Source of the DNA: Clostridiaceae bacterium
GTDB taxonomy: Bacteria > Bacillota > Clostridia > Lachnospirales > Lachnospiraceae
Direction: 5' to 3'
Assembly: GCA_910574345.1 (NCBI GenBank)
Contig: CAJSZV010000040.1
Location: 1 to 32,012, forward strand
Length of the DNA: 32,012 nucleotides
The notes under the pieces were generated by a model that had not been told where the DNA came from, ran no database searches, and was given only the letters and a program-made list of their open reading frames with translations. Made by a program: the position numbers and the translations under genes. How positions within the stretch are numbered: position 1 is the first letter of the stretch; each line of letters starts with the position of its first letter. Shown here in pieces: positions 2,400 to 21,152 of this stretch.

Positions 2400-2690
2400 T
2401 TACAGCACACCCAGCTTCTTCAGCAGCGCCACACAGTCCTTCGCACCCTGCTCATACAGATACAGGCAGTCGTGATCCGCCGCCAGCAGTGTCGCCTCCA
2501 CATAATCCGTGATAGCCTTCTTCACATCCTCCGGCAGGTCTTTGATCTTCTCCTGCATCTCCTTACTCAGTCTGGCCACCCTGTCCTGGAGTTCCTGCTC
2601 CTCCGATGACTGCTCATTGCGCTCCCGCACTGCGGTTTCTGTCATCTCCCGGATCACCATCTCGTAGATTTCTTCTCTGTCCATTTTCAT
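2400..2690 (-). CDS. Hypothetical protein of conjugative element (96 aa)
   Basis: The ATG at 2690 (MKMDREEIYEMVIREMTE) is preceded by AAGGAGTG at good spacing. This start fits better than the upstream in-frame ATGs. The protein is hydrophilic and helical, with a central charged segment and a C-terminal helical stretch (DYVEATLLAADHDCLYLYEQ, then GAKDCVALLKKLGVL). There are no membrane segments or known catalytic motifs. It lies between the relaxase remnant and a ribbon-helix-helix gene on the same strand, so it probably belongs to the same degraded element. I do not recognise a function. Confidence 0.6.
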   Translation of the reverse strand: MKMDREEIYEMVIREMTETAVRERNEQSSEEQELQDRVARLSKEMQEKIKDLPEDVKKAITDYVEATLLAADHDCLYLYEQGAKDCVALLKKLGVL

Positions 2691-2752
2691 TTCACTCCTT
2701 TTTTCAATCAACATAAACGGAACTGTCCGCACAGGTGAAAACTTTTTATCTT

Positions 2753-3160
2753 TTAGTTTTCACGTTTCTGATACTTGTATGCGCCGTTGAGACGCTTCAC
2801 TTCCTCCACGCACTTTGCATGGAGCTTCCAGAAGACACTTTCATCGATCCGGTTTTCCGAATGATAGGCGATCATGTGCGCCAGCATGGAAAGCTCCACC
2901 GCCATCTTAAAGTCCATACAGGCCAGACGGTTCTTGGTATCCTGTACCGTGCTGGTGAGGACCGAGGACAGGGACTGCAGCAGATAGTCTTCGGCCTTCC
3001 CGGAATTCAGATAACCGCAATAGAACTTCAGCGCCTCCGTGACAAACTCATTCCGGGAGCGCACATTGGCGGCTGGCAGAAGACTGTCCGCCATCTCCAG
3101 TACTTCCTTCTCGATGTAGATACCTTCCCGCACCTTTTCCTTTCCCTTGGCCATCATCAT
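2753..3160 (-). CDS. Ribbon-helix-helix-type DNA-binding protein of conjugative element
   Basis: The first 55 residues (VREGIYIEKEVLEMADSLLP, then RSRNEFVTEALKFYCGYL) fit a ribbon-helix-helix fold: one beta strand, then two helices with a turn at RSRNEF. The C-terminal 80 residues are helical. Proteins of this form sit beside MobP relaxases in Clostridia integrative elements, where relaxosome accessory or copy-control roles are plausible. The start is one of three tandem ATGs at 3160-3152 behind a weak AAAGAAAGA site. The gene appears intact (135 residues) although its relaxase neighbour is destroyed. Confidence 0.65.
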   Translation of the reverse strand: MMMAKGKEKVREGIYIEKEVLEMADSLLPAANVRSRNEFVTEALKFYCGYLNSGKAEDYLLQSLSSVLTSTVQDTKNRLACMDFKMAVELSMLAHMIAYHSENRIDESVFWKLHAKCVEEVKRLNGAYKYQKREN

Positions 3161-3183
3161 TCTTTCTTTTGTTTATGCTTCTA

Positions 3184-3969
3184 CTATAAGGCGGGAGACT
3201 GTCCCATCCCCTTCTGCGCCTGCCCCTCCTTAGGAAACGGGATCTCAAACAGCCGCAGGATCTCTTTCTGGGACTCAAACTCCCTCTCCGCAATCAATTC
3301 CATAAAACCCCTGTCATCCCTGTGCGCCCGCTCCAGCAGGGACACATAATCCCCCCGCAGGATGGGCGGCACAACTACAGGCAGGTATCCGTCCTGGATC
3401 AGCGCCAGGTTCATCAAAAGCCTTGCCACCCTGCCGTTCCCGTCCTTGAAGGGGTGGATGAACACAAACCTCTTGTGGAGCTGGGCGGCAAATTCCACGG
3501 GATGGTATCCCTCCCTCTCCTTCTGTACCCAGGCAAACAGACGGTCCATCTCCCTCTGTATCCTCTCCGGGGCAGCCACGGGATACTGCGACCCTGTGAT
3601 CAGCACCCGGACATCCCGGTAGCGTCCGGCATACCCCGGCTCAATATTCTGGTAGAACAGCCCATGGATCTTCAGCACGGTCTGCTCGTCAATGCGCCTG
3701 TCCCGGAACACGGAGAACATAAAATCATAGGCTCTGGCATGGTCCACCGCCTCCAACACGTCCCGGAGCGGTTTCCCGCCCACCGTCAGGCCGTCCTCCA
3801 GGAGCACTTTCGTCTCGCTCTCTGTCAGAGAGTTCCCCTCCAGCGCGTTGGATGTCCATGTCAGTCCAATCCGGTAATAATCCTGTATCTGCCCCAGCAT
3901 TTCGCCTTCCATCGGACGCAGCCCATGGATCTCTTTCTGGAAAAGGTCTATTTTTCTCAGTATCTCCAT
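3184..3969 (-). CDS. Fic-family protein (AMP-transferase), class II
   Basis: This 261-residue protein carries the full Fic active-site loop HPFKDGNGRVAR (residues 172-183, HxFx(D/E)GNGRxxR), used to transfer AMP from ATP to hydroxyl side chains of target proteins. An N-terminal inhibitory motif SNALEGN (40-46, (S/T)xxxE(G/N)N) marks it as class II, whose alpha-inh helix is part of the same protein and whose glutamate blocks productive ATP binding. The beta-hairpin flap region lies near residues 118-135. The ATG at 3969 follows AAAGGA about 10 nt away. It appears complete. It sits on the same strand as the conjugative remnants, but no separate antitoxin gene is needed for class II enzymes. The target is unknown. 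Confidence 0.92.
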   Translation of the reverse strand: MEILRKIDLFQKEIHGLRPMEGEMLGQIQDYYRIGLTWTSNALEGNSLTESETKVLLEDGLTVGGKPLRDVLEAVDHARAYDFMFSVFRDRRIDEQTVLKIHGLFYQNIEPGYAGRYRDVRVLITGSQYPVAAPERIQREMDRLFAWVQKEREGYHPVEFAAQLHKRFVFIHPFKDGNGRVARLLMNLALIQDGYLPVVVPPILRGDYVSLLERAHRDDRGFMELIAEREFESQKEILRLFEIPFPKEGQAQKGMGQSPAL

Positions 3970-11048: not shown

Positions 11049-11214
11049 TTTAGACCTCCTGTTGTGTATTGTATATAGTATAGACGTTCAAACGAACTGT
11101 ATTAAGCGCAGAAATATGAACTTTAATCAAAGTTCTCCGAAAAGAAAAGCGACAGAGCTTTAACCCTCTGCCGCCATGTTACCTATGCACTCTCCATAAG
11201 CCTCCCCGTCTCTG

Positions 11215-11532
11215 TCAAACAGCAGGCTTCATTCCCTCTAATATTGTCATGTATTTCTCTGTCATAGCCTCTATTTCCGTCAGCTCTGCTTCTGTCGCAT
11301 CCTCCAAATCATGTTCCGTGTCCTGGAGGACATCCATAACAATCTCCTCTTTCAGACATTGGAGCAGTTCTTCCGGCGTTTCAATAACCTCCGGTATATA
11401 GGCAAAATCACCCGTATCCGGATCATAATGAAGAATGATATATCCAAACTTCGTGTGACACACATCTATGTATTTACTCCTGGTAATATACCCCTGAAAT
11501 GCATTGACAATATCTGTAAAACTCCAATCCAT
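11215..11532 (-). CDS. Acidic hypothetical protein (105 aa)
   Basis: The ATG at 11532 (MDWSFTDIVNAFQGYITRSK) has AAGGTGAG upstream and is a better start than the upstream in-frame codon at 11580. The N-terminal half is mixed alpha/beta (FGYIILHYDPDTGDFAYIPE). The C-terminal half is strongly acidic and helical (DVLQDTEHDLEDATEAELTE). There are no signal peptide, membrane segment or catalytic motifs. The strong acidity could suit a nucleic-acid-mimic or inhibitor protein, but that is speculation. It stands alone between the helix-turn-helix stub and the metallopeptidase block. Confidence 0.55.
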   Translation of the reverse strand: MDWSFTDIVNAFQGYITRSKYIDVCHTKFGYIILHYDPDTGDFAYIPEVIETPEELLQCLKEEIVMDVLQDTEHDLEDATEAELTEIEAMTEKYMTILEGMKPAV

Positions 11533-11720
11533 ATTCTCACCTTCTTTGCAAACATATGTTCTGTTTATACAGCATACCATAGAGCATGGTGAGTGTCAAT
11601 CACGAATTTTCTTTTAAAAAACGCCCTGCAGTTTGCAATAGACTTTGTTCAATGATACTATTTATATGATTCGGTTCACTCCGGCAAAACTTACCACTAT
11701 CTCACAGAGGAGGCTTTCTT

Positions 11721-11790
11721 ATGATCAAGACATTCACGCTTGAACCTGGCCAACCATTAACAGACGAACATCTGGGAGAAATAAGGGATT
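11721..11790 (+). pseudogene. BrnT-partner antitoxin, N-terminal stub
   Basis: An ATG at 11721 behind GAGGAGG (8 nt) begins MIKTFTLEPGQPLTDEHLGE, clearly related to the antitoxins at 30044-30232 (MIKTATLDKDQKPTDEMLRE) and 24662-24859. Similarity ends after about 22 codons (near 11785-11790). The reading then passes antisense through the 3' end of the metallopeptidase gene, stopping at 11894. The FDED and C-terminal parts are missing. This is a recombination junction between a toxin-antitoxin locus and the metallopeptidase gene. Confidence 0.6.
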
Positions 11791-12515
11791 TTAAAAATAT
11801 TCTCTTTTCTTTTCTGAATCTCAGGGTGCGTCTCCGTTCCTACATACGCCTGAAATTCCTCCTGGTGGCTCTGTTTCTTTGTCTGCCTGCTTAATCCGCC
11901 TTTCTTATCATGGTTTAAATATATATGGGCCAGTTCATGGGCCAAATTGAATGCGGTAATGGTCCAATAACAATCTTCTGCAAGATTGATTACCTGGAGA
12001 TCCCCGTTGACTGTTCTTAACAAAGTTTCTGACGCATTAGCGTCCGGCAGCCTTCCCAAAATGCTTACATCATTTAATGTGTACAAAGCATGAATAAAGC
12101 CAAATCCGTAAGTCTCCAGATTATCAAACTCTTTGGTCCACTTAAACATAGACAGGAAAAAAGAAAGAACTGCCGCTTCATATAATTCGTCTATATGGAT
12201 GAAACTATTTTCGCCTTCTTTTTCCCCTTCACAAACATAGCTGGAAATATTTCCCTGATAACGGTTGTTCAGCTCTACTTTGCTGTCAGAAAATTCATAC
12301 TCCTTCCTAAAAAAATATTGAATCTGTTCCAACATCTTTTCCAGGCTGTACTTTTCCAAATTTTCTTTTATCAACTCCTCTGAGAACTGGTCTTTTGGAA
12401 GATATTCAAGGATTTTCTTCATTCCATAACGTAAATCTTTCGCCCGGATTCCCCCATATTTTAAAAGCTCATACTTATTAGGAATCAGGAAACGAGGCAT
12501 TCCCCATTCTTTCAT
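11757..12515 (-). CDS. HExxH metallopeptidase-like protein, possibly 3'-truncated
   Basis: 252 residues with no signal peptide. Residues 186-202 contain HELAH (193-197), a zincin HExxH motif in the helix AFNLAHELAHIYLNH, as in ImmA/IrrE-like cytosolic peptidases. A candidate third zinc ligand is in QEEFQAY (219-225). The N-terminal 180 residues match no domain I recognise. The ATG at 12515 overlaps the preceding small gene's stop (ATGA), so translation is coupled. The last about 11 residues are read antisense through the BrnT-partner stub at 11721-11790, so the native C-terminus is probably lost. Downstream of a NACHT NTPase on the same strand, it may be an effector protease or a toxin. Both ideas are inference. 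Confidence 0.6.
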   Translation of the reverse strand: MKEWGMPRFLIPNKYELLKYGGIRAKDLRYGMKKILEYLPKDQFSEELIKENLEKYSLEKMLEQIQYFFRKEYEFSDSKVELNNRYQGNISSYVCEGEKEGENSFIHIDELYEAAVLSFFLSMFKWTKEFDNLETYGFGFIHALYTLNDVSILGRLPDANASETLLRTVNGDLQVINLAEDCYWTITAFNLAHELAHIYLNHDKKGGLSRQTKKQSHQEEFQAYVGTETHPEIQKRKENIFKIPYFSQMFVC

Positions 12516-12661
12516 CGCATCTCTAACCTCTCCCTCAATCGTTCTCTTGCCTGATCTTTGCTAAAAGTTTCAGCCCCGTTTATACGTTCCCCTTCAGCCT
12601 GAAGCACCCTTTCCCGAAGCTTTAGCTTCTGTTCCCTTTTCTCAAAGACATCAATCCTCAT
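12512..12661 (-). CDS. Small charged helical protein, antitoxin-like (49 aa)
   Basis: ATG at 12661 with AGAGGA 6 nt upstream; 49 codons. The sequence is almost all charged helix (MRIDVFEKREQKLKLRERVL, then QAEGERINGAETFSKDQARE). This recalls the N-terminal helical part of small RelB/Phd-like antitoxins with a GA-(E/K)T turn. The stop TGA overlaps the ATG of the metallopeptidase gene, the classic antitoxin-before-toxin arrangement. It sits 63 bp after the NACHT-associated frame on the same strand and may be part of that operon. Too short for firm family assignment. Confidence 0.6.
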   Translation of the reverse strand: MRIDVFEKREQKLKLRERVLQAEGERINGAETFSKDQARERLRERLEMR

Positions 12662-12724
12662 AAGTATCCTCTTTTTCCCCATTTTTTGTATGGATAATTA
12701 TATTTTTATGCTGTAAATTACTCC

Positions 12725-14452
12725 TCAATTAATCCCCAATATATAATCTTTCGCCTCATCAACAGTCCACTTCCGTTGAACACTCTGCCTATAACTCTCT
12801 TTCGCTTCTTCCAACCAATACTCTAATTGCAATCTTTTTGAAAATGTTATCGTATCTTCTCCAATCCTCTTTTCCAACAAGGCTTTTACCCTCTCATATC
12901 CGTCCCCGCCGCTTCCTGCTATTCCAAAAAGCGCTATTCCTAATGCATTGCGCAGACCTCCATATTCCATATCCTCAAAATCCGGCTGACACCACAATTC
13001 CACTAATTTAAACAATTCTTCCCAAAGTTCCTCCTTCCGGATATTTCCAATACTTCTCAATAATTCACTCTCTATATAATTCTTTTCAGTTCTTCGTTTC
13101 TTCTCCAAAGTCTCACGATAAGCCTTTAATCCACGGTTATCCTGCAGTTGGATAAGATACCTATAACAGAAATTTTTGTCCTTATCATCCCTTTGGGCGT
13201 AATTCCACAGCAAATCTTCCAGCCCCTCTGGCCTGTTTTCCACTATTTTAGAAACTGTATCCATAAACATTCTTCCATCTAAATTTGGAAGAATCACCTG
13301 GCATACTGCCTCCGGCCCAATTACTTTATAAAAATATTTAATAGCTCTTTCCCTGACCCACTCTGACCGTGTATCATCCACCGCTATCTTTCGTATCGCA
13401 TCTGCACATTCACAGATTTCAAATTCTTTGCAATATCTTAAATGCAGACACAAATCGTCCCCTTTGAGTCCACCATGATTCATGTTGCACAGCACAATTT
13501 TTTTAAGTTCCTCTTTAGTAAAATGTCTCTCTAACAGACTGCGTATCTGTTCCTCATCCAAAAAATATGTCGCTGTAAGAATTCCTTCTGCCTTTCCTTT
13601 CTCCATTGGAAAATCAAATAGCCATGCAAAGTAAAGCATCCTTTGCCCTCTCCCATCCAATATTTCATATTCTTCATCTGTCAGCCATCTGATCATTTGG
13701 GAAAAATTTATTATTTCTATGTTTCTGTCAAAATATGCTTTTGCTGCATCCTCAATTTCATCAGGAATATCCTCTTTTTTTCCTTTATATTTATAAAGCC
13801 AGTTTATAACCAATCTGCTTTCATACTCTTTCCACTGCTGCTCAACGCTGTTTCTCCACTCTTGTATGGTTTCTGTGTTATCACTTCGAAAATAGTCAAA
13901 TTTTACCTGTTCTAAATCATAGCGGTTCCGTTCCCATTCAATTAGACCTTCCTCCATATCTTTCCTGGTCAATCTTTCCTTTCCGTATAAGCCTATTAAC
14001 TCTTCAATCAAAGAAAGATATTTTCTTTTACATGTAATTGCATTCAGATACTTCGCGTCTCCCTGTCTGCGAAGTCCATCGTAATCAATCCTCTGTCTGG
14101 TCTGTATCTGAATACCTGTTTTCTCATAATACAATGCCGTAAGCTCATTAAATACCGCATTTTGACTGTCCATAAAGTCAATACATAATCTTACCTGGGT
14201 TTGATTCAGCTTCCCATTTTTATATTGATCCAATACCCATTTAGATACTGCATGGTCAAGCAGCTGCCTTATAATCATCCATGAACAACTACCCTCTTCC
14301 ACGTTTTTTAACTCATACTGGCATAACTTTATTTTCTCTCCTGCATCAGAAAAATAGTTTGAAACCATATTTTCCAAATTATGCAGGCCATTAGAAGATA
14401 CGATCTCATAAAATTCTACTAATGTACTCCATTTGTCGTCTGTAAATCTCAC
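12725..14452 (-). CDS. Helical-repeat C-terminal part of NACHT protein (575 aa)
   Basis: 575 residues, almost entirely helical, with HEAT/ARM-like pairs in the second half (CADAIRKIAVDDTRSEWVRE, AIKYFYKVIGPEAVCQVILP). There are no membrane segments or catalytic motifs. It begins with GTG at 14452, the codon immediately after the TAA of the NACHT frame and in the same frame, with no good ribosome site before it (only GGA about 16 nt away). The two frames therefore look like one protein of about 1,358 residues interrupted by a single nonsense codon. In STAND NTPases such C-terminal helical arrays usually recognise the trigger. Alternatively it is a separate subunit made by termination-reinitiation. 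Confidence 0.7.
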   Translation of the reverse strand: MRFTDDKWSTLVEFYEIVSSNGLHNLENMVSNYFSDAGEKIKLCQYELKNVEEGSCSWMIIRQLLDHAVSKWVLDQYKNGKLNQTQVRLCIDFMDSQNAVFNELTALYYEKTGIQIQTRQRIDYDGLRRQGDAKYLNAITCKRKYLSLIEELIGLYGKERLTRKDMEEGLIEWERNRYDLEQVKFDYFRSDNTETIQEWRNSVEQQWKEYESRLVINWLYKYKGKKEDIPDEIEDAAKAYFDRNIEIINFSQMIRWLTDEEYEILDGRGQRMLYFAWLFDFPMEKGKAEGILTATYFLDEEQIRSLLERHFTKEELKKIVLCNMNHGGLKGDDLCLHLRYCKEFEICECADAIRKIAVDDTRSEWVRERAIKYFYKVIGPEAVCQVILPNLDGRMFMDTVSKIVENRPEGLEDLLWNYAQRDDKDKNFCYRYLIQLQDNRGLKAYRETLEKKRRTEKNYIESELLRSIGNIRKEELWEELFKLVELWCQPDFEDMEYGGLRNALGIALFGIAGSGGDGYERVKALLEKRIGEDTITFSKRLQLEYWLEEAKESYRQSVQRKWTVDEAKDYILGIN

Positions 14453-16801
14453 TTATTTTTCAGTAAATCCGGTAAAAATATGTTCTACCACTTTGTCAAT
14501 TTGGAAGATATGAAAATATCTCTTGTTGTCTGCTAATTCCTTAATCACTTTCAAAGCTGCGGAAGGTTCCTCTACACACATCAGAGCATAATGCAGTTCT
14601 GAAGACTCATTCCCCAGCCTTCCTTCATTCCGGCAGACATATTTTAATCCATCTGTTAAGAACCAAATATACTTATCGGCCTTTCCTAAAACACGAATAC
14701 AGCGATATAGAGCATAGCGGACCTCTGATACTTCTGTTTCCTGAAAAATTTGCATTAACTTTTCAAACTCCTTCTCATCCATCAAACCCAATTCCAACAT
14801 ACAAAGTATTGCACGCTCATAAACGCCCTCATACTCCTGTTGTATTTGGCATAACTCCATCAGAGTATCCCGAACTCTATCATCACATCCAAATAAATTA
14901 GGGCAATAACTTAATGCAAGAATTGCATTCTGCTGTATTACAATGTCCAGGGGATTCCTGATTTCGTTTAAAAACATATCAATTTCCAGATAATTTACTC
15001 CAAATTGCATTAATTTCTCCGGCCGATATCGCTGTCTTGTAATCCATTCATGTTGCTTTTTTAATCTTTCCCATTCTTTGCGCAAGATTTTTGAACGCTT
15101 TGGAGCCGGAATCCGGGTTATATCTGAATCGAAAAACAAAGTAAAATCCGCTTCCAAAAGCCACGCCTCTATATCCTCATTGCCCATAAAGAGCAAATAA
15201 GACAATACATGATTCCAGTTTCTGCTGATTCCCAGTTCCGGATATCCTGCTGATACAAGAGTTTTCACCTCATCAAACGGACACCTGGCAAGATACTCTG
15301 CCGCCAGGTACTCGCCAAAATTATTGTGGGAAAACTGCCAGCCCTCTTCCTGAAATTTCCAAATACTGCTATAGCGCAAAAGCTCCCTATCCTCCAAAGA
15401 AGGGATAAACTTCTGATAATCTTTTTCCGGAAGAGAATGGCAATCCATCCCATGCATTGCAGCCGCAATTTTTTGAAGCTGAGAAAATATCCTCGTCTTC
15501 TGTCCCGCTAAATCAATATCCATTGTCATTCGGAACTTCCTGGAATCTTCGGCAAATTTATGTTCCATTAACTCCTTCATTAATTGACTTCGTTCCGGAA
15601 GTGTCTTTTTTTCCTGATAGATACTGCATAATTCTATTAAATAAAAAGGAATCAAGAGTAATTCTTTTAAGCTGCGCTGTTCAATTTCTAATAAAAATTT
15701 CCTATCATCTATCCCTGATTCCCTGACAAACTCTGTAACATCCTCATCTGTCAGCGAATCTATCCATACAGTTTCAAAATAATCCCCTAAGATGTCCTTG
15801 CGGTAAAAATTATTTCTTGCGGATACTAAAAATCTTGCTTTCGGATTCTGTTCATGGTATGCTGTCAACTGTTTTAAAAAATTTTGTTTATTCCCTCCTG
15901 ATATCTCATCAAATCCGTCAATAAGAAAAAATAATTCATGCTCTTTTTCTATAAAGAATCCGTGTTTTTTAGCTAAGTCCTCTATGGTTTCATCTATGTA
16001 CGTTTTTAAAGTCAGATAAACCGGCCTTGGCAAATCTGAATTTTCACTATAAAACGCAGCCGTCCACTGTAATTCTGTGGATTTTCCATTTCCAGCTTCT
16101 CCTAGCAGGATAATAAAAGGATATTTCTGACATAGTTCTGTCAATTGAAATTTATTTGCAAATTTGCTCTCTCCTGTCAACCGATTCTCCTGGTTATAAC
16201 AATACCGCTTTATATGAAGTGCAGGACACTCATACTTTTTTTCTGAAAACTCTGTTTTCTCTCTTTCAAACAACTTTTCCATCCAGTCAGTCTGCGATTC
16301 ATTGGCCTGCCAGATATTCCGTATCATCTCATTCTGTCTGTACTTTTGAGGCAAATCCATCTGTCCGTTCAAAATATCCCTGGCCCCGTCAGCCAATACC
16401 TGATATAATTCCTTTAAAACCAATTGATCCTTTGCCGTAAGTTCCCTGCCGTTTACTTGGGCTATCTCCCTTGCGTCACACACAAGACGGCCTATAAAGC
16501 CGTCCTGAACAATTCGACCATGCTCCCCCCTGTCTCCGACAAGATATTCTACTATTTTCTCAACTGGATTCTGATATTTTAAAAAATCACAAAACCAATC
16601 GGAATCTAAAAACAAATCTTCTTCATGATTTATCATAAAAGAACGCAGCTTATCTTCTAATTGAGTACTGATACTTCTTTTAGCACAGCAATTCTTTTCA
16701 AATTGACTCTTTTTTGTCCACTTGTCATATATATTTTGTCCAACTTCATATGCTGAGATCAATTCCATAATAATATCAAAAGCTGCCTTCCCAAACTCCA
16801 T
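14453..16801 (-). CDS. NACHT-type STAND NTPase (782 aa)
   Basis: A 782-residue protein. An N-terminal helical region (1-190) contains a DLFLDSDWFCDFLKYQNP segment like those preceding bacterial NACHT modules. The NTPase follows with Walker A GEAGNGKST (234-242), Walker B FFLIDGFDE (291-299, with the small residue and second acidic pair typical of NACHT) and a sensor-like RFLVSARN (323-330). A winged-helix-like region ending HNNFGEYLAAEYLA comes next, then helical repeats (after about 560). STAND NTPases oligomerise on sensing a trigger, and many bacterial ones are antiphage. No recognisable nuclease, protease or TIR effector is fused to the N-terminus. The ATG at 16801 has AAGGG 6 nt upstream. 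It ends at TAA 14455-14453, directly followed in frame by the helical-repeat frame. Confidence 0.85.
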   Translation of the reverse strand: MEFGKAAFDIIMELISAYEVGQNIYDKWTKKSQFEKNCCAKRSISTQLEDKLRSFMINHEEDLFLDSDWFCDFLKYQNPVEKIVEYLVGDRGEHGRIVQDGFIGRLVCDAREIAQVNGRELTAKDQLVLKELYQVLADGARDILNGQMDLPQKYRQNEMIRNIWQANESQTDWMEKLFEREKTEFSEKKYECPALHIKRYCYNQENRLTGESKFANKFQLTELCQKYPFIILLGEAGNGKSTELQWTAAFYSENSDLPRPVYLTLKTYIDETIEDLAKKHGFFIEKEHELFFLIDGFDEISGGNKQNFLKQLTAYHEQNPKARFLVSARNNFYRKDILGDYFETVWIDSLTDEDVTEFVRESGIDDRKFLLEIEQRSLKELLLIPFYLIELCSIYQEKKTLPERSQLMKELMEHKFAEDSRKFRMTMDIDLAGQKTRIFSQLQKIAAAMHGMDCHSLPEKDYQKFIPSLEDRELLRYSSIWKFQEEGWQFSHNNFGEYLAAEYLARCPFDEVKTLVSAGYPELGISRNWNHVLSYLLFMGNEDIEAWLLEADFTLFFDSDITRIPAPKRSKILRKEWERLKKQHEWITRQRYRPEKLMQFGVNYLEIDMFLNEIRNPLDIVIQQNAILALSYCPNLFGCDDRVRDTLMELCQIQQEYEGVYERAILCMLELGLMDEKEFEKLMQIFQETEVSEVRYALYRCIRVLGKADKYIWFLTDGLKYVCRNEGRLGNESSELHYALMCVEEPSAALKVIKELADNKRYFHIFQIDKVVEHIFTGFTEK

Positions 16802-16990: not shown

Positions 16991-17150
16991 TTAAATCTCC
17001 GTCCCGACTTCCGCACTATTGTGGAAGGTGAACACCACCCTGCCGTCCGAATAGACCGTTGCGTAATTCACAAGTCTGTGGAACAGCTCCCTTATCCGCT
17101 GCTCGTACAGATGCACAGAGGTATCTGCTCTCGCCTTGCTACTTAAAAAG
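16991..17150 (-). pseudogene. Large serine recombinase, C-terminal remnant
   Basis: The minus-strand frame ending at TAA 16991 encodes about 50 residues: LYEQRIRELFHRLVNYATVY, SDGRVVFTFHNSAEVGTEI. This resembles the extreme C-terminus of large serine recombinases of Clostridia elements (a helix, then a two-strand hairpin ending near EI/EV). The catalytic, recombinase and zinc domains are absent. No start codon or ribosome site accompanies it. It marks the edge of a former mobile element on the upstream side of the NACHT gene. Confidence 0.5.
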
Positions 17151-17178
17151 TGGCTTGCAGGGCGGCATAAGCACGAAA

Positions 17179-17203
17179 CCTGCCGAATGGTTTAAACGGC
17201 AGG
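17179..17203. terminator. Hairpin CCTGCCG/CGGCAGG
   Basis: A 7-bp GC-rich stem with an 11-nt loop lies just 3' of the TSUP permease remnant. It is flanked by modest T/A-rich DNA on both sides, so it could terminate the minus-strand gene. Confidence 0.45.
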
Positions 17204-17215
17204 CTTCTGATTTCA

Positions 17216-17720
17216 TTATTTCAAGTAATTCACTGTCAGGATAACCACTCCCAGAACAGCAAGCACAACGCCAGTTGCACAGTTTAATGTCGCTGCGTTG
17301 GCTTTATTTGCGAATTTGGCGGCAATCCTCGCCCAGAGCAGTGTAGAGGCCACACAGAACAACAAGCACCATACATCCGGCATACCGCCTATGGCAAAGT
17401 GACTGACAGCGCCTGTAAAGGCCGTAAAGCCATGATAAACACACTTGTCCCAACGGCGGTCTTCAATTTATACCCTAGATTCCGAGGATCAGTGTCATGA
17501 ATACGGAGAAACTGCCCATAGTGGTATTCGGAACGCAGCTTGCGGCCACCCCACCAATGTAAAAATCAGAACGGTCACCATCATTACAAGGCCATTGCGA
17601 ATATCAAGGTTTTTATTTTTCCCATAAGTGTATGCGCTTATGGCACTTGGAAGAACATCACTCGCCAGTGCAATGCCGACTGCCTCATATGCCGGAAGCC
17701 CCAGAAAAGTAATCAGCATA
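17216..17720 (-). pseudogene. TSUP (TauE/SafE) permease, internally deleted
   Basis: Pieces of a sulfite/organosulfonate-type exporter are in order: MLITFLGLPAYEAVGIALAS, SAYTYGKNKNLDIRNGLVMM, a MGSFSVFMTLILG-like segment, then after a gap and frame change KTAVGTSVFI, HFAIGGMPDVW and a hydrophobic C-terminus ending VVILTVNYLK. About 60 central residues (including the GFVGAGGG-type repeat) are missing near 17470-17500. There is at least one frameshift near 17435. The N-terminal signature repeat is also replaced by another gene's end. Not functional. Confidence 0.7.
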
Positions 17721-17866
17721 GGACTGTTGTGCAGGATACGGTCATTTTGTTTTTTCATCCTGTCAATTTCCTCCTGTGAAAAACCATCCAGCATGATTGA
17801 AATGAATTCCTCCTGTGCGGCCTGCCCATCATGGATGATGCCCATAGCCCCTTTGCATATCCTCAA
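17721..17866 (-). pseudogene. Regulator C-terminal fragment (MarR-like) fused to TSUP remnant
   Basis: The segment QAAQEEFISIMLDGFSQEE, IDRMKKQNDRI resembles the C-terminal dimerisation helices of MarR-type regulators rather than any permease. It runs in frame into the TSUP fragment at about 17720. No ribosome site supports the start at 17866. It looks like a deletion that joined the end of a regulator gene to the middle of the transporter gene it may once have controlled. Family assignment is weak. Confidence 0.35.
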
Positions 17867-20507: not shown

Positions 20508-20861
20508 TCACCGCCTCTTGTAATCTGTTCCATCAGCCCCCTGCATTTCCAATATAAAGACTGAACCATTTCCCAGCTTCCGTTTATTTCTCTTTCCAGA
20601 CAGGTTCCGGAACACAGAGTAGGAAGCATTCAAAACATTTTCAATGAGGTAGACAAGCAGCCAGTCCGGTTGAATGTGGCACTCACGGTGCCCCGCCCAG
20701 TTTCCGGTTAATGCATGGTCTTTATTTTTTTCTGGCAGCTGTTCGCCGCCTGCCAGCTTACAGATAATGTTATCAAGAAGTTCTATGTCCAAATGGCGCT
20801 TTATCGCCAGTTTATAGTCTTTCTTGAACTGACCTGTCCAGACAATATCCAGATGATTCAT
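20508..20861 (-). CDS. YafQ-type mRNA interferase toxin with altered C-terminus
   Basis: The 117-residue frame begins MNHLDIVWTGQFKKDYKLAI and carries GGEQLPEKNKDHALTGNW and HRECHIQPDWLLVYLIEN, the YafQ/RelE fold that cleaves mRNA in the ribosome. YafQ proteins normally end about 12-16 residues later with an L-T-RTGSHSDLF-like strand carrying catalytic residues. Here a frame change after IEN replaces this with VLNASYSVFRNLSGKRNK and about 25 further residues. The other frame reads MLPTLCSGTCLE, a better match to the expected end. The toxin is probably inactivated by a one- or two-base indel near 20645. The start overlaps the antitoxin stop by 4 bp. Confidence 0.75.
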   Translation of the reverse strand: MNHLDIVWTGQFKKDYKLAIKRHLDIELLDNIICKLAGGEQLPEKNKDHALTGNWAGHRECHIQPDWLLVYLIENVLNASYSVFRNLSGKRNKRKLGNGSVFILEMQGADGTDYKRR

Positions 20862-21133
20862 TCTTTTAATTCCCGCAACGCTTCCTCTACATCAGAATAG
20901 CGTTTTACAGATGGGTCATGTGCAATGTGCTCTGCTTCCAGCATTGCCGCAATCGTCTCTTTGTTAGGCTGTTCCATGCGAACATCAAAAGGGAAACCGC
21001 CGACACGAAGAGACTGACGGAGAAATACATTAATAGCGGTTGTAAGATTAAGCCCCAACTCACCATATAAGGCTTCACATTGTTTTTTAATATCACTGTC
21101 CAGACGGACACTGAAATTCGTTGTGTTAGCCAA
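20858..21133 (-). CDS. DinJ/RelB-family antitoxin
   Basis: 91 residues from the TTG at 21133, chosen because AAGGAG lies 8 nt upstream. The TTG at 21142 abuts that site. The N-terminal ribbon-helix-helix (TTNFSVRLDSDIKKQCEALY, GLNLTTAINVFLRQSLRVGG) binds the operator and dimerises. The C-terminal segment (KRYSDVEEALRELKE) would wrap the YafQ toxin. The coding regions overlap by ATGA. The promoter has an 11-bp inverted repeat, consistent with autoregulation. It appears intact although its toxin has a damaged end. Confidence 0.88.
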   Translation of the reverse strand: MANTTNFSVRLDSDIKKQCEALYGELGLNLTTAINVFLRQSLRVGGFPFDVRMEQPNKETIAAMLEAEHIAHDPSVKRYSDVEEALRELKE

Positions 21134-21152
21134 ATTTATCAACTCCTTTCAC

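Follow-up and report, generated by a model that had tools for sequence, protein, structure and literature searches.

A probably decayed NACHT gene, an antitoxin-like fragment and half of a peptidase module side by side in a Lachnospiraceae contig

In this study, we analysed a block of genes on the minus strand of a contig from a Clostridiaceae bacterium placed in the Lachnospiraceae (assembly GCA_910574345.1, contig CAJSZV010000040.1, positions 1 to 32,012); the window means this whole stretch of 32,012 nucleotides. An earlier note on this DNA had read the block as an antiphage operon of four parts, in which a NACHT/STAND sensor acts with a HExxH metallopeptidase as its effector and a coupled small protein restrains the peptidase. 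We arrive at a different reading, to which we give a probability of roughly two in three: the block is composite and decayed, made up of three parts unrelated to each other, namely a broken one-gene bNACHT sensor, a decapitated Phd/YefM antitoxin, and the first half of a separate module consisting of a peptidase and a partner protein of ~190 residues (Table 1). The anatomy of the block and its breakage are observed, as are the co-occurrence of peptidase and partner and the lack of a link to NACHT in the further loci that we found. Since the peptidase loci are mostly without this NACHT and the NACHT relatives mostly without the peptidase, the link between the two is best read as adjacency within one lineage. 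A false four-part immune operon is thereby replaced by a testable two-gene peptidase module; on sequence grounds, peptidase and partner are a real unit, uncatalogued and the novel part of the locus.

Table 1. Parts of the block and its deletion joints, in window coordinates
Feature	Position	Strand	Remarks
5' part of NACHT-STAND gene, codons 1-782	14453..16801	-	NACHT NTPase between an N-terminal region lacking a Pfam match and the start of the helical repeats; in-frame TAA at the end
Remainder (3' part) of the NACHT-STAND gene, severed by the stop and presumably its sensor region	12725..14452	-	single open reading frame with the 5' part in L008 and L009
56-residue reading frame, without a DNA-binding half, that resembles a Phd/YefM-type antitoxin over the C-terminal half of the latter	12512..12682	-	BLASTP, Pfam, PHROGs
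Truncated M78/Lit-like HExxH metallopeptidase gene	11757..12515	-	159-bp in-frame gap after the HELAH...EEF codons; foreign 3' end
Joint of 159-bp in-frame deletion relative to L008	11843..11856	.	at short direct repeat
Joint of ~2.1-kb deletion relative to L008 (L008 15181-17284)	11781..11782	.	removed peptidase 3' end and partner gene

Results

Open reading frames (ORFs) and motifs were read from the translations, and families were assigned with Pfam on the window ORFs. The four ORFs that the earlier note described are present on one strand with the motifs ascribed to them, but they are not four separate intact proteins: the two NACHT parts are halves of one gene with a TAA inside it, and the peptidase is truncated. 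The upstream NACHT half encodes 782 residues with GEAGNGKST (Walker A) and FFLIDGFDE (Walker B), and scores above the cut-off of the Pfam NACHT model as a NACHT/STAND NTPase (PF05729, E 4.7e-8, 33.5 bits, cut-off 26.7). It abuts, in one frame and with a single TAA between, a half of 575 residues, so that the two form one gene of 1358 codons with a stop after codon 782. The genome search likewise treats the two halves as a single match that contains "1 TAA". A scan of genome contigs, made with the NACHT protein only, returned two loci, L008 and L009, both labelled Lachnospiraceae, and in each of them NACHT is a single uninterrupted ORF of 1358 residues. Distant relatives are also one long ORF each, with 1329 residues in a Bacteroides ovatus plasmid (L006), at least 1372 in a virome scaffold (L023, 5' end open) and 1463 in L044 (genome G583). 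The three-part, uninterrupted ORF of a bNACHT protein is found in all five of these relatives, with the 5' end open in L023, and is lost in the window copy.

At the DNA level, the window NACHT gene is 95.8% identical to that of L008 and 94.3% identical to that of L009, with ratios of nonsynonymous to synonymous substitution rates (dN/dS) of 0.24 and 0.21, respectively. Nucleotides 2101-2700 of the gene (window 12725-16801) are a mosaic or fast-changing region, where identity among the window, L008 and L009 drops to 83-90% in most comparisons of two 300-bp blocks; other blocks reach 99%. NACHT relatives are rare in the samples: one genome besides the window's own was found among 236 class-level genomes (E 1e-10), and among 99 relatives there were only two matches besides the window's own (G300 and G310, 30% identity over ~100 residues). 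These two, and a match in a Nostoc plasmid, were not counted as relatives. Neither NACHT half matched viral contigs, and a profile search of PDB sequences with the NACHT protein gave nothing at E 0.01. Ahead of NACHT, the proteins of L023 (73-4191) and L044 (8617-13008) have a calcineurin/SbcD-like phosphoesterase (Pfam E 2e-4 in L023; SbcD E 0.004, a weak match, in L044), and the N-terminal regions of the L008 and B. ovatus proteins had no Pfam match. In the available part of PMC12169576, bNACHT proteins are described as self-contained sensor-effector proteins. By analogy, such a role would suit the NACHT gene, and the phosphoesterase of its distant relatives fits it; intact relatives would then act alone, through their own N-terminal domain.

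The window peptidase has 252 residues, with HELAH at residues 193-197, and its counterpart in L008 has 361 and is followed by a partner ORF of 198 residues. Relative to L008, 159 bp (53 residues) are absent in frame between short direct repeats, just past the codons of the HExxH region, and a further ~2.1 kb is missing; past this gap, window and L008 align once more (89.7% over 475 bp at 11191-11664, and 86% over 84 bp at 11699-11782). Because its far side matches the sequence downstream in L008, this gap looks like a real deletion with divergence. Altogether 109 of the 361 residues of the L008 peptidase have no counterpart in the window; the loss includes a strongly conserved block and extends to the partner gene. 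HExxH and a downstream EE[FY]xAD are both present in all five other rows of the peptidase alignment (A6; one row partial), and the window has HELAH only. By these alignments, the 252-residue peptidase is a deletion product; the window copies of both the NACHT gene and the peptidase module are probably non-functional. Downstream of the intact pair in L008, in a part that the window has lost or in which it has diverged, lie a Thg1-like fragment (16267-16695, Pfam E 2e-19) and a weak P-loop fragment (17029-17379, AAA_33, E 0.003).

The small ORF upstream of the peptidase gene reads 56 residues from its first ATG and 49 from the next, and shares an ATGA overlap with the peptidase ORF. Its product has no Pfam family. 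At E 0.1, its only match in the plasmid collection is to residues 44-92 of a 99-residue protein of a Subdoligranulum plasmid (BLASTP E 7e-12), which is a Pfam PhdYeFM protein (E 4e-8) followed by a ParE toxin (E 1.3e-7); in PHROGs, it has a modest match to the C-terminal half of the antitoxin phrog_2268 (E 0.0019). Where a type II Phd/YefM antitoxin joins a DNA-binding half to a toxin-binding tail, the tail alone matches here. The L008/L009 similarity extends 29 bp past the end of the NACHT gene and breaks off 13 bp short of the small ORF. Read most simply, the ORF is what remains of a decapitated antitoxin gene, situated at a junction. The same 56-residue ORF precedes the peptidase of L008; in the other peptidase loci (L022, L041, L042, L043 and L045) tblastn found none at E 0.1, and raising the limit to E 10 brought up no more than chance-level matches upstream of the peptidases (in L043, the upstream region is missing).

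Relatives of the peptidase were found in six other loci: L008; L022 (G378; 391-genome sample); L041 (G1158), L042 and L043 (G1307; 231-genome sample); and L045, an unverified "Bacteriophage sp." virome scaffold with a 9.3-kb record. The genome samples overlap, and their counts are not additive. A phylum-level sample (398 genomes) and a family sample (299) held no convincing relative besides the window, and in G378's family (38 genomes) a relative occurs only in G378 itself. By tblastn, the peptidase was recovered with E 4e-98 in L041, 4e-94 in L042, 1e-48 in L043 (partial), 4e-47 in L022 and 3e-15 in L045, where the divergent protein (2583-3533) carries HELYH and, akin to EE[FY]xAD, ELRAD. In five of the six loci, the gene immediately after the peptidase encodes the partner, the exception being L045, and the two frames overlap or abut in L008, L041, L042 and L022. 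The partner was matched by tblastn in L042 (E 9e-34), L043 (9e-31) and L041 (2e-12), and that of L022 is 24% identical in pairwise BLASTP (E 3e-13) and agrees in place and length. The complete peptidases that have a partner (n=4) are 352-380 residues long, with conserved regions outside the M78 core, and the partners have 180-198 residues. In G1307, two copies of the pair lie on different contigs (L042 and L043).

The peptidase gave no match in plasmids, in viral contigs or, with the window protein as query, in phages, and the partner gave none in the same three collections. Weak peptidase matches were dropped: G001 (E 6e-4, residues 38-95 only), G649, G610, G430, G404, G727 and G408 (E 0.001-0.01), G1251 (E 4.6e-4, containing a stop), G362 (E 0.18) and another site in the genome of the window (E 0.2). 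By eye, the G610 match is an ImmA-like protein beside a repressor and that of G430 lies in a stretch of housekeeping genes. Weak partner matches in G377 and G380 were also set aside. A distant and uncertain relative of the partner, a protein of 208 residues, occurs in L031 (hhalign E 1.3e-5, probability 81%, BLASTP only E 0.025). That locus (G428:C98:45000-54500) has on one strand a STAND-like NTPase of 1368 residues, the partner-like protein, a ThiC-like protein and an EAD7-trypsin protein, possibly a STAND-protease set.

Defence genes of differing and unrelated kinds lie near the pair, whose intact copies recur in Clostridia. In L022, it lies back to back (divergent) with an RT_UG5-nitrilase gene (E 9e-183); in L041, it lies ~2.5 kb from Wadjet JetA (E 9e-165), the only Wadjet gene looked for; in L042, it lies beside a methyltransferase fragment (E 1e-13) and an ORF that looks integrase-like by eye; and in L045, the divergent peptidase precedes GajA and GajB (E 3e-35 and 6e-26, against Gabija proteins of solved structure). 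Searched by tblastn at E 0.1, L022, L041, L042, L043 and L045 hold no relative of the window NACHT, and L006, L023 and L044 hold no peptidase; none was found either in the genome of L009 (best E 0.18), which carries a NACHT of 94% identity. A window-type NACHT thus lies near the peptidase in one of the six other peptidase loci, and a peptidase near NACHT in one of the five NACHT relatives, L008 in both cases. These counts refer to flanks of limited extent: upstream of the peptidase, L041 has only ~840 bp, L043 breaks off inside the peptidase itself, L045 spans no more than its 9.3-kb record, and L023 reaches ~1 kb past NACHT.

The peptidase resembles known families over its core. That of L008 matches Lit in NCBIfam over residues 179-293 (E 1.7e-7, 30.7 bits, cut-off 274) and in PADLOC (E 1.6e-6), and Pfam M78 over ~47 residues with 25.0 bits (cut-off 22); the window copy scores 20.2 bits for M78 and 18.7 for Lit, so that neither copy qualifies as a Lit equivalog. 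The L041 and L042 peptidases were scanned with PADLOC, where L042 matched Lit (E 0.006) and L041 matched capP (E 0.001), as did L008 (E 0.003). That of L022 matched neither Lit nor M78 in PADLOC, Pfam or NCBIfam. On these scores, we regard the peptidase as a relative in kind of Lit and not as a Lit member. Peptidase U49 is the MEROPS family of Lit. The partners of L008 and L022 belong to no helix-turn-helix family in Pfam or NCBIfam. Two candidate assignments for the L008 partner were rejected: archaeal chorismate mutase (NCBIfam E 8e-4, below cut-off), which was not repeated in the L022 partner, and PD-T4-10B (PMC9519451; a local PADLOC match, E 8e-4), which is absent from the partners of L022, L041, L042 and L043. 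Profile searches of PDB sequences with the peptidase and the partner gave nothing below E 0.1. In the copies scanned, then, the matches in Pfam, NCBIfam, PADLOC and PHROGs are only partial and centre on the peptidase core, and the partner falls into no family.

Other features of the window were noted around the block. Upstream of NACHT lies a TauE/SafE transporter gene fragment (17495-17866, Pfam E 5e-7, below cut-off), and, by eye, an upstream recombinase remnant and a RelE/DinJ-like toxin-antitoxin pair (20508-21142) were seen. The whole block, used as a DNA query against phages, gave no match.

Discussion

The reading of the earlier note, that NACHT senses infection and activates the metallopeptidase effector in trans while the small protein restrains it, is one we consider very unlikely. 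It draws on the same strand and order of the genes in the window and L008, on L031, whose partner-like protein between a STAND-like NTPase and an EAD7-trypsin protein suggests that sets of STAND and protease with such a partner may exist, and on the gasdermin-operon figure legend in the accessible portion of PMC9612521, which names Peptidase U49 and NACHT among conflict-system genes. Yet five of the six other peptidase loci lack this NACHT and four of the five other NACHT loci lack the peptidase, L009 included; the small protein recurs only in L008; and NACHT has an N-terminal region of its own, occupied by the phosphoesterase in L023 and L044. An operon of NACHT, small protein and peptidase is therefore not borne out, the NACHT relative and the 56-residue protein each accompanying one of six other peptidases (L008; flanks are short in L041, L043 and L045), and the adjacency of the three, which the earlier note proposed to look for in other genomes, fails outside L008; this is largely the outcome it had named as telling against its proposal. 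Restraint by the small protein gives way as well, that protein being an antitoxin-like fragment not found with other peptidases, whose regular companion is the ~190-residue gene deleted in the window. What holds from that note is an antiphage kind of NACHT/STAND protein in surroundings that look mobile, with the metallopeptidase a possible effector, and its toxin-antitoxin debris near the block, to which the 56-residue ORF itself seems to belong. That this protein is instead a working antitoxin of the peptidase, forming a toxin-antitoxin pair, is scarcely credible: it has an antitoxin-like sequence and the ATGA coupling of type II pairs, but tblastn at E 0.1 did not find it in the five peptidase loci other than L008 (L043 being without upstream sequence), its Phd/YefM match is partial and lacks the DNA-binding half, and the L008/L009 similarity breaks right before it.

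Two further explanations concern the pair and the damage. The pair could be a regulator, in which an ImmA/CapP-like peptidase cleaves a winged-helix repressor, the partner, and so switches on adjacent defence genes. In support of this, the L008 peptidase exceeds the M78 cut-off, capP is matched in L008 and L041, and the end of the partner model would be compatible with a winged helix, although matches to such domains were non-significant. However, no helix-turn-helix family was recognised for the L008 and L022 partners, the neighbours vary among L008, L022, L041 and L042 and are divergent in L022, and the four complete peptidases have conserved regions beyond the M78 core; we therefore consider a regulatory pair unlikely. 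Alternatively, the stop and gaps of the window could be assembly or sequencing errors in an intact locus. The genome is a draft of 106 contigs (97.02% completeness, 3.27% contamination), but the lesions are three and separate, one of them a 2.1-kb gap that closes on L008 downstream sequence, and we hold such errors to be highly improbable.

Several observations weigh against a decayed composite with a separate peptidase module. In L008, the NACHT gene is indeed followed by the intact pair, with all three genes on one strand, and the absence of the pair from L009 could be a secondary loss. The NACHT stop is probably recent, because the dN/dS of 0.24 against L008 still shows constraint. The 56-residue protein also resembles stage II sporulation protein R (Pfam E 0.034, NCBIfam E 0.0047), an assignment we did not adopt as both matches are below cut-off. 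Independent loci are few: besides L008 there are four genomes or records, L042 and L043 belong to one genome, and L045 is unverified. The L045 peptidase has an ORF of 157 residues upstream and no partner match; in L043, the peptidase is cut by the contig end and the partner ORF starts late; and the L022 partner, which tblastn under three settings did not match at E 10, rests on BLASTP, place and length. The structure models are of low confidence, with a mean predicted local distance difference test (pLDDT) of 51 for the mostly helical peptidase and 69 for the partner, which ends in helices and a short beta hairpin, and the partner structure had no match at E 0.001 in a viral library (0 of 178). 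Finally, adjacent defence genes are no proof of a defence function.

Taken with these reservations, the composite reading leaves the intact pair as the part to explain. We tentatively propose, at somewhat less than even odds, that it is an uncatalogued two-gene abortive-infection module that moves between defence islands of Clostridia, consisting of a Lit/M78-like metallopeptidase and a coupled partner of ~190 residues, of no known family, as sensor, adaptor or pro-effector. That the two genes are tightly coupled and occur together suggests a partner that either controls the peptidase or feeds it. The translationally coupled partner would hold the peptidase inactive, steer it to its target, or be a pro-effector that the peptidase cuts; infection would release the HExxH peptidase, which would cleave its target so that growth stops, in the manner of Lit or of other immune protease-partner pairs. 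We infer all biochemistry of the block and the module in this way.

Comparison with known systems

The NACHT protein resembles bNACHT antiphage proteins, among whose named models NCBIfam EruA (NF058535) and HyoA (NF058534) come closest, in having a NACHT NTPase followed by a long C-terminal part, with EruA matching residues 216-510 of the L008 protein at E 3e-15. It falls far short of either equivalog (L008 55.5 and 44.2 bits and the window ORF 49 and 44.2 bits for EruA and HyoA, respectively, against 1000 and 1200), and differs in that its N-terminal region has no Pfam match and the window copy is split by a stop. The 56-residue protein is like the C-terminal half of the antitoxin of Phd/YefM-ParE systems, but in the window the N-terminal DNA-binding half and the toxin are absent. 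Our literature searches listed no paper naming two of EruA, HyoA and NACHT together, none naming four of Lit, metalloprotease, NACHT, antitoxin and ImmA, and none under the terms used for two-gene NACHT systems.

The peptidase shares its HExxH motif with Lit of the Escherichia coli prophage e14, from which the locus differs by its coupled partner gene. According to the part of PMC3014915 available, Lit cleaves EF-Tu in infected cells when the T4 Gol peptide is bound; should the pair turn out to serve in defence, it would join a dedicated partner to a peptidase of the Lit type. With ImmA/IrrE (Peptidase_M78) and with CapP of the cyclic oligonucleotide-based antiphage signalling system (CBASS), it has in common the HExxH...E..AD metallopeptidase core, but the match covers ~47 residues of a protein of 352-380, and no helix-turn-helix repressor gene was recognised beside the peptidase in the regions viewed. 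Gasdermin operons, for which a figure legend in PMC9612521 lists Peptidase U49 and NACHT/NLR genes, are similar in that a peptidase and a partner are proposed to work jointly in cell-death defence; here, the partner (180-198 residues) matched no Pfam gasdermin model. Pairs of trypsin and metallo-beta-lactamase (MBL) nuclease, which excerpts of Tuck et al. 2025 (PMC12799240) present as protease-effector pairs acquired by several immune systems, are alike in being two-gene sets of peptidase and partner near differing defence systems. They differ from the pair described here, which has a metallopeptidase, no recognised nuclease partner, no sensor fusion and only five loci. By analogy, and on what these excerpts convey, both papers may serve as models for such use of a peptidase and its partner, and as nothing more.

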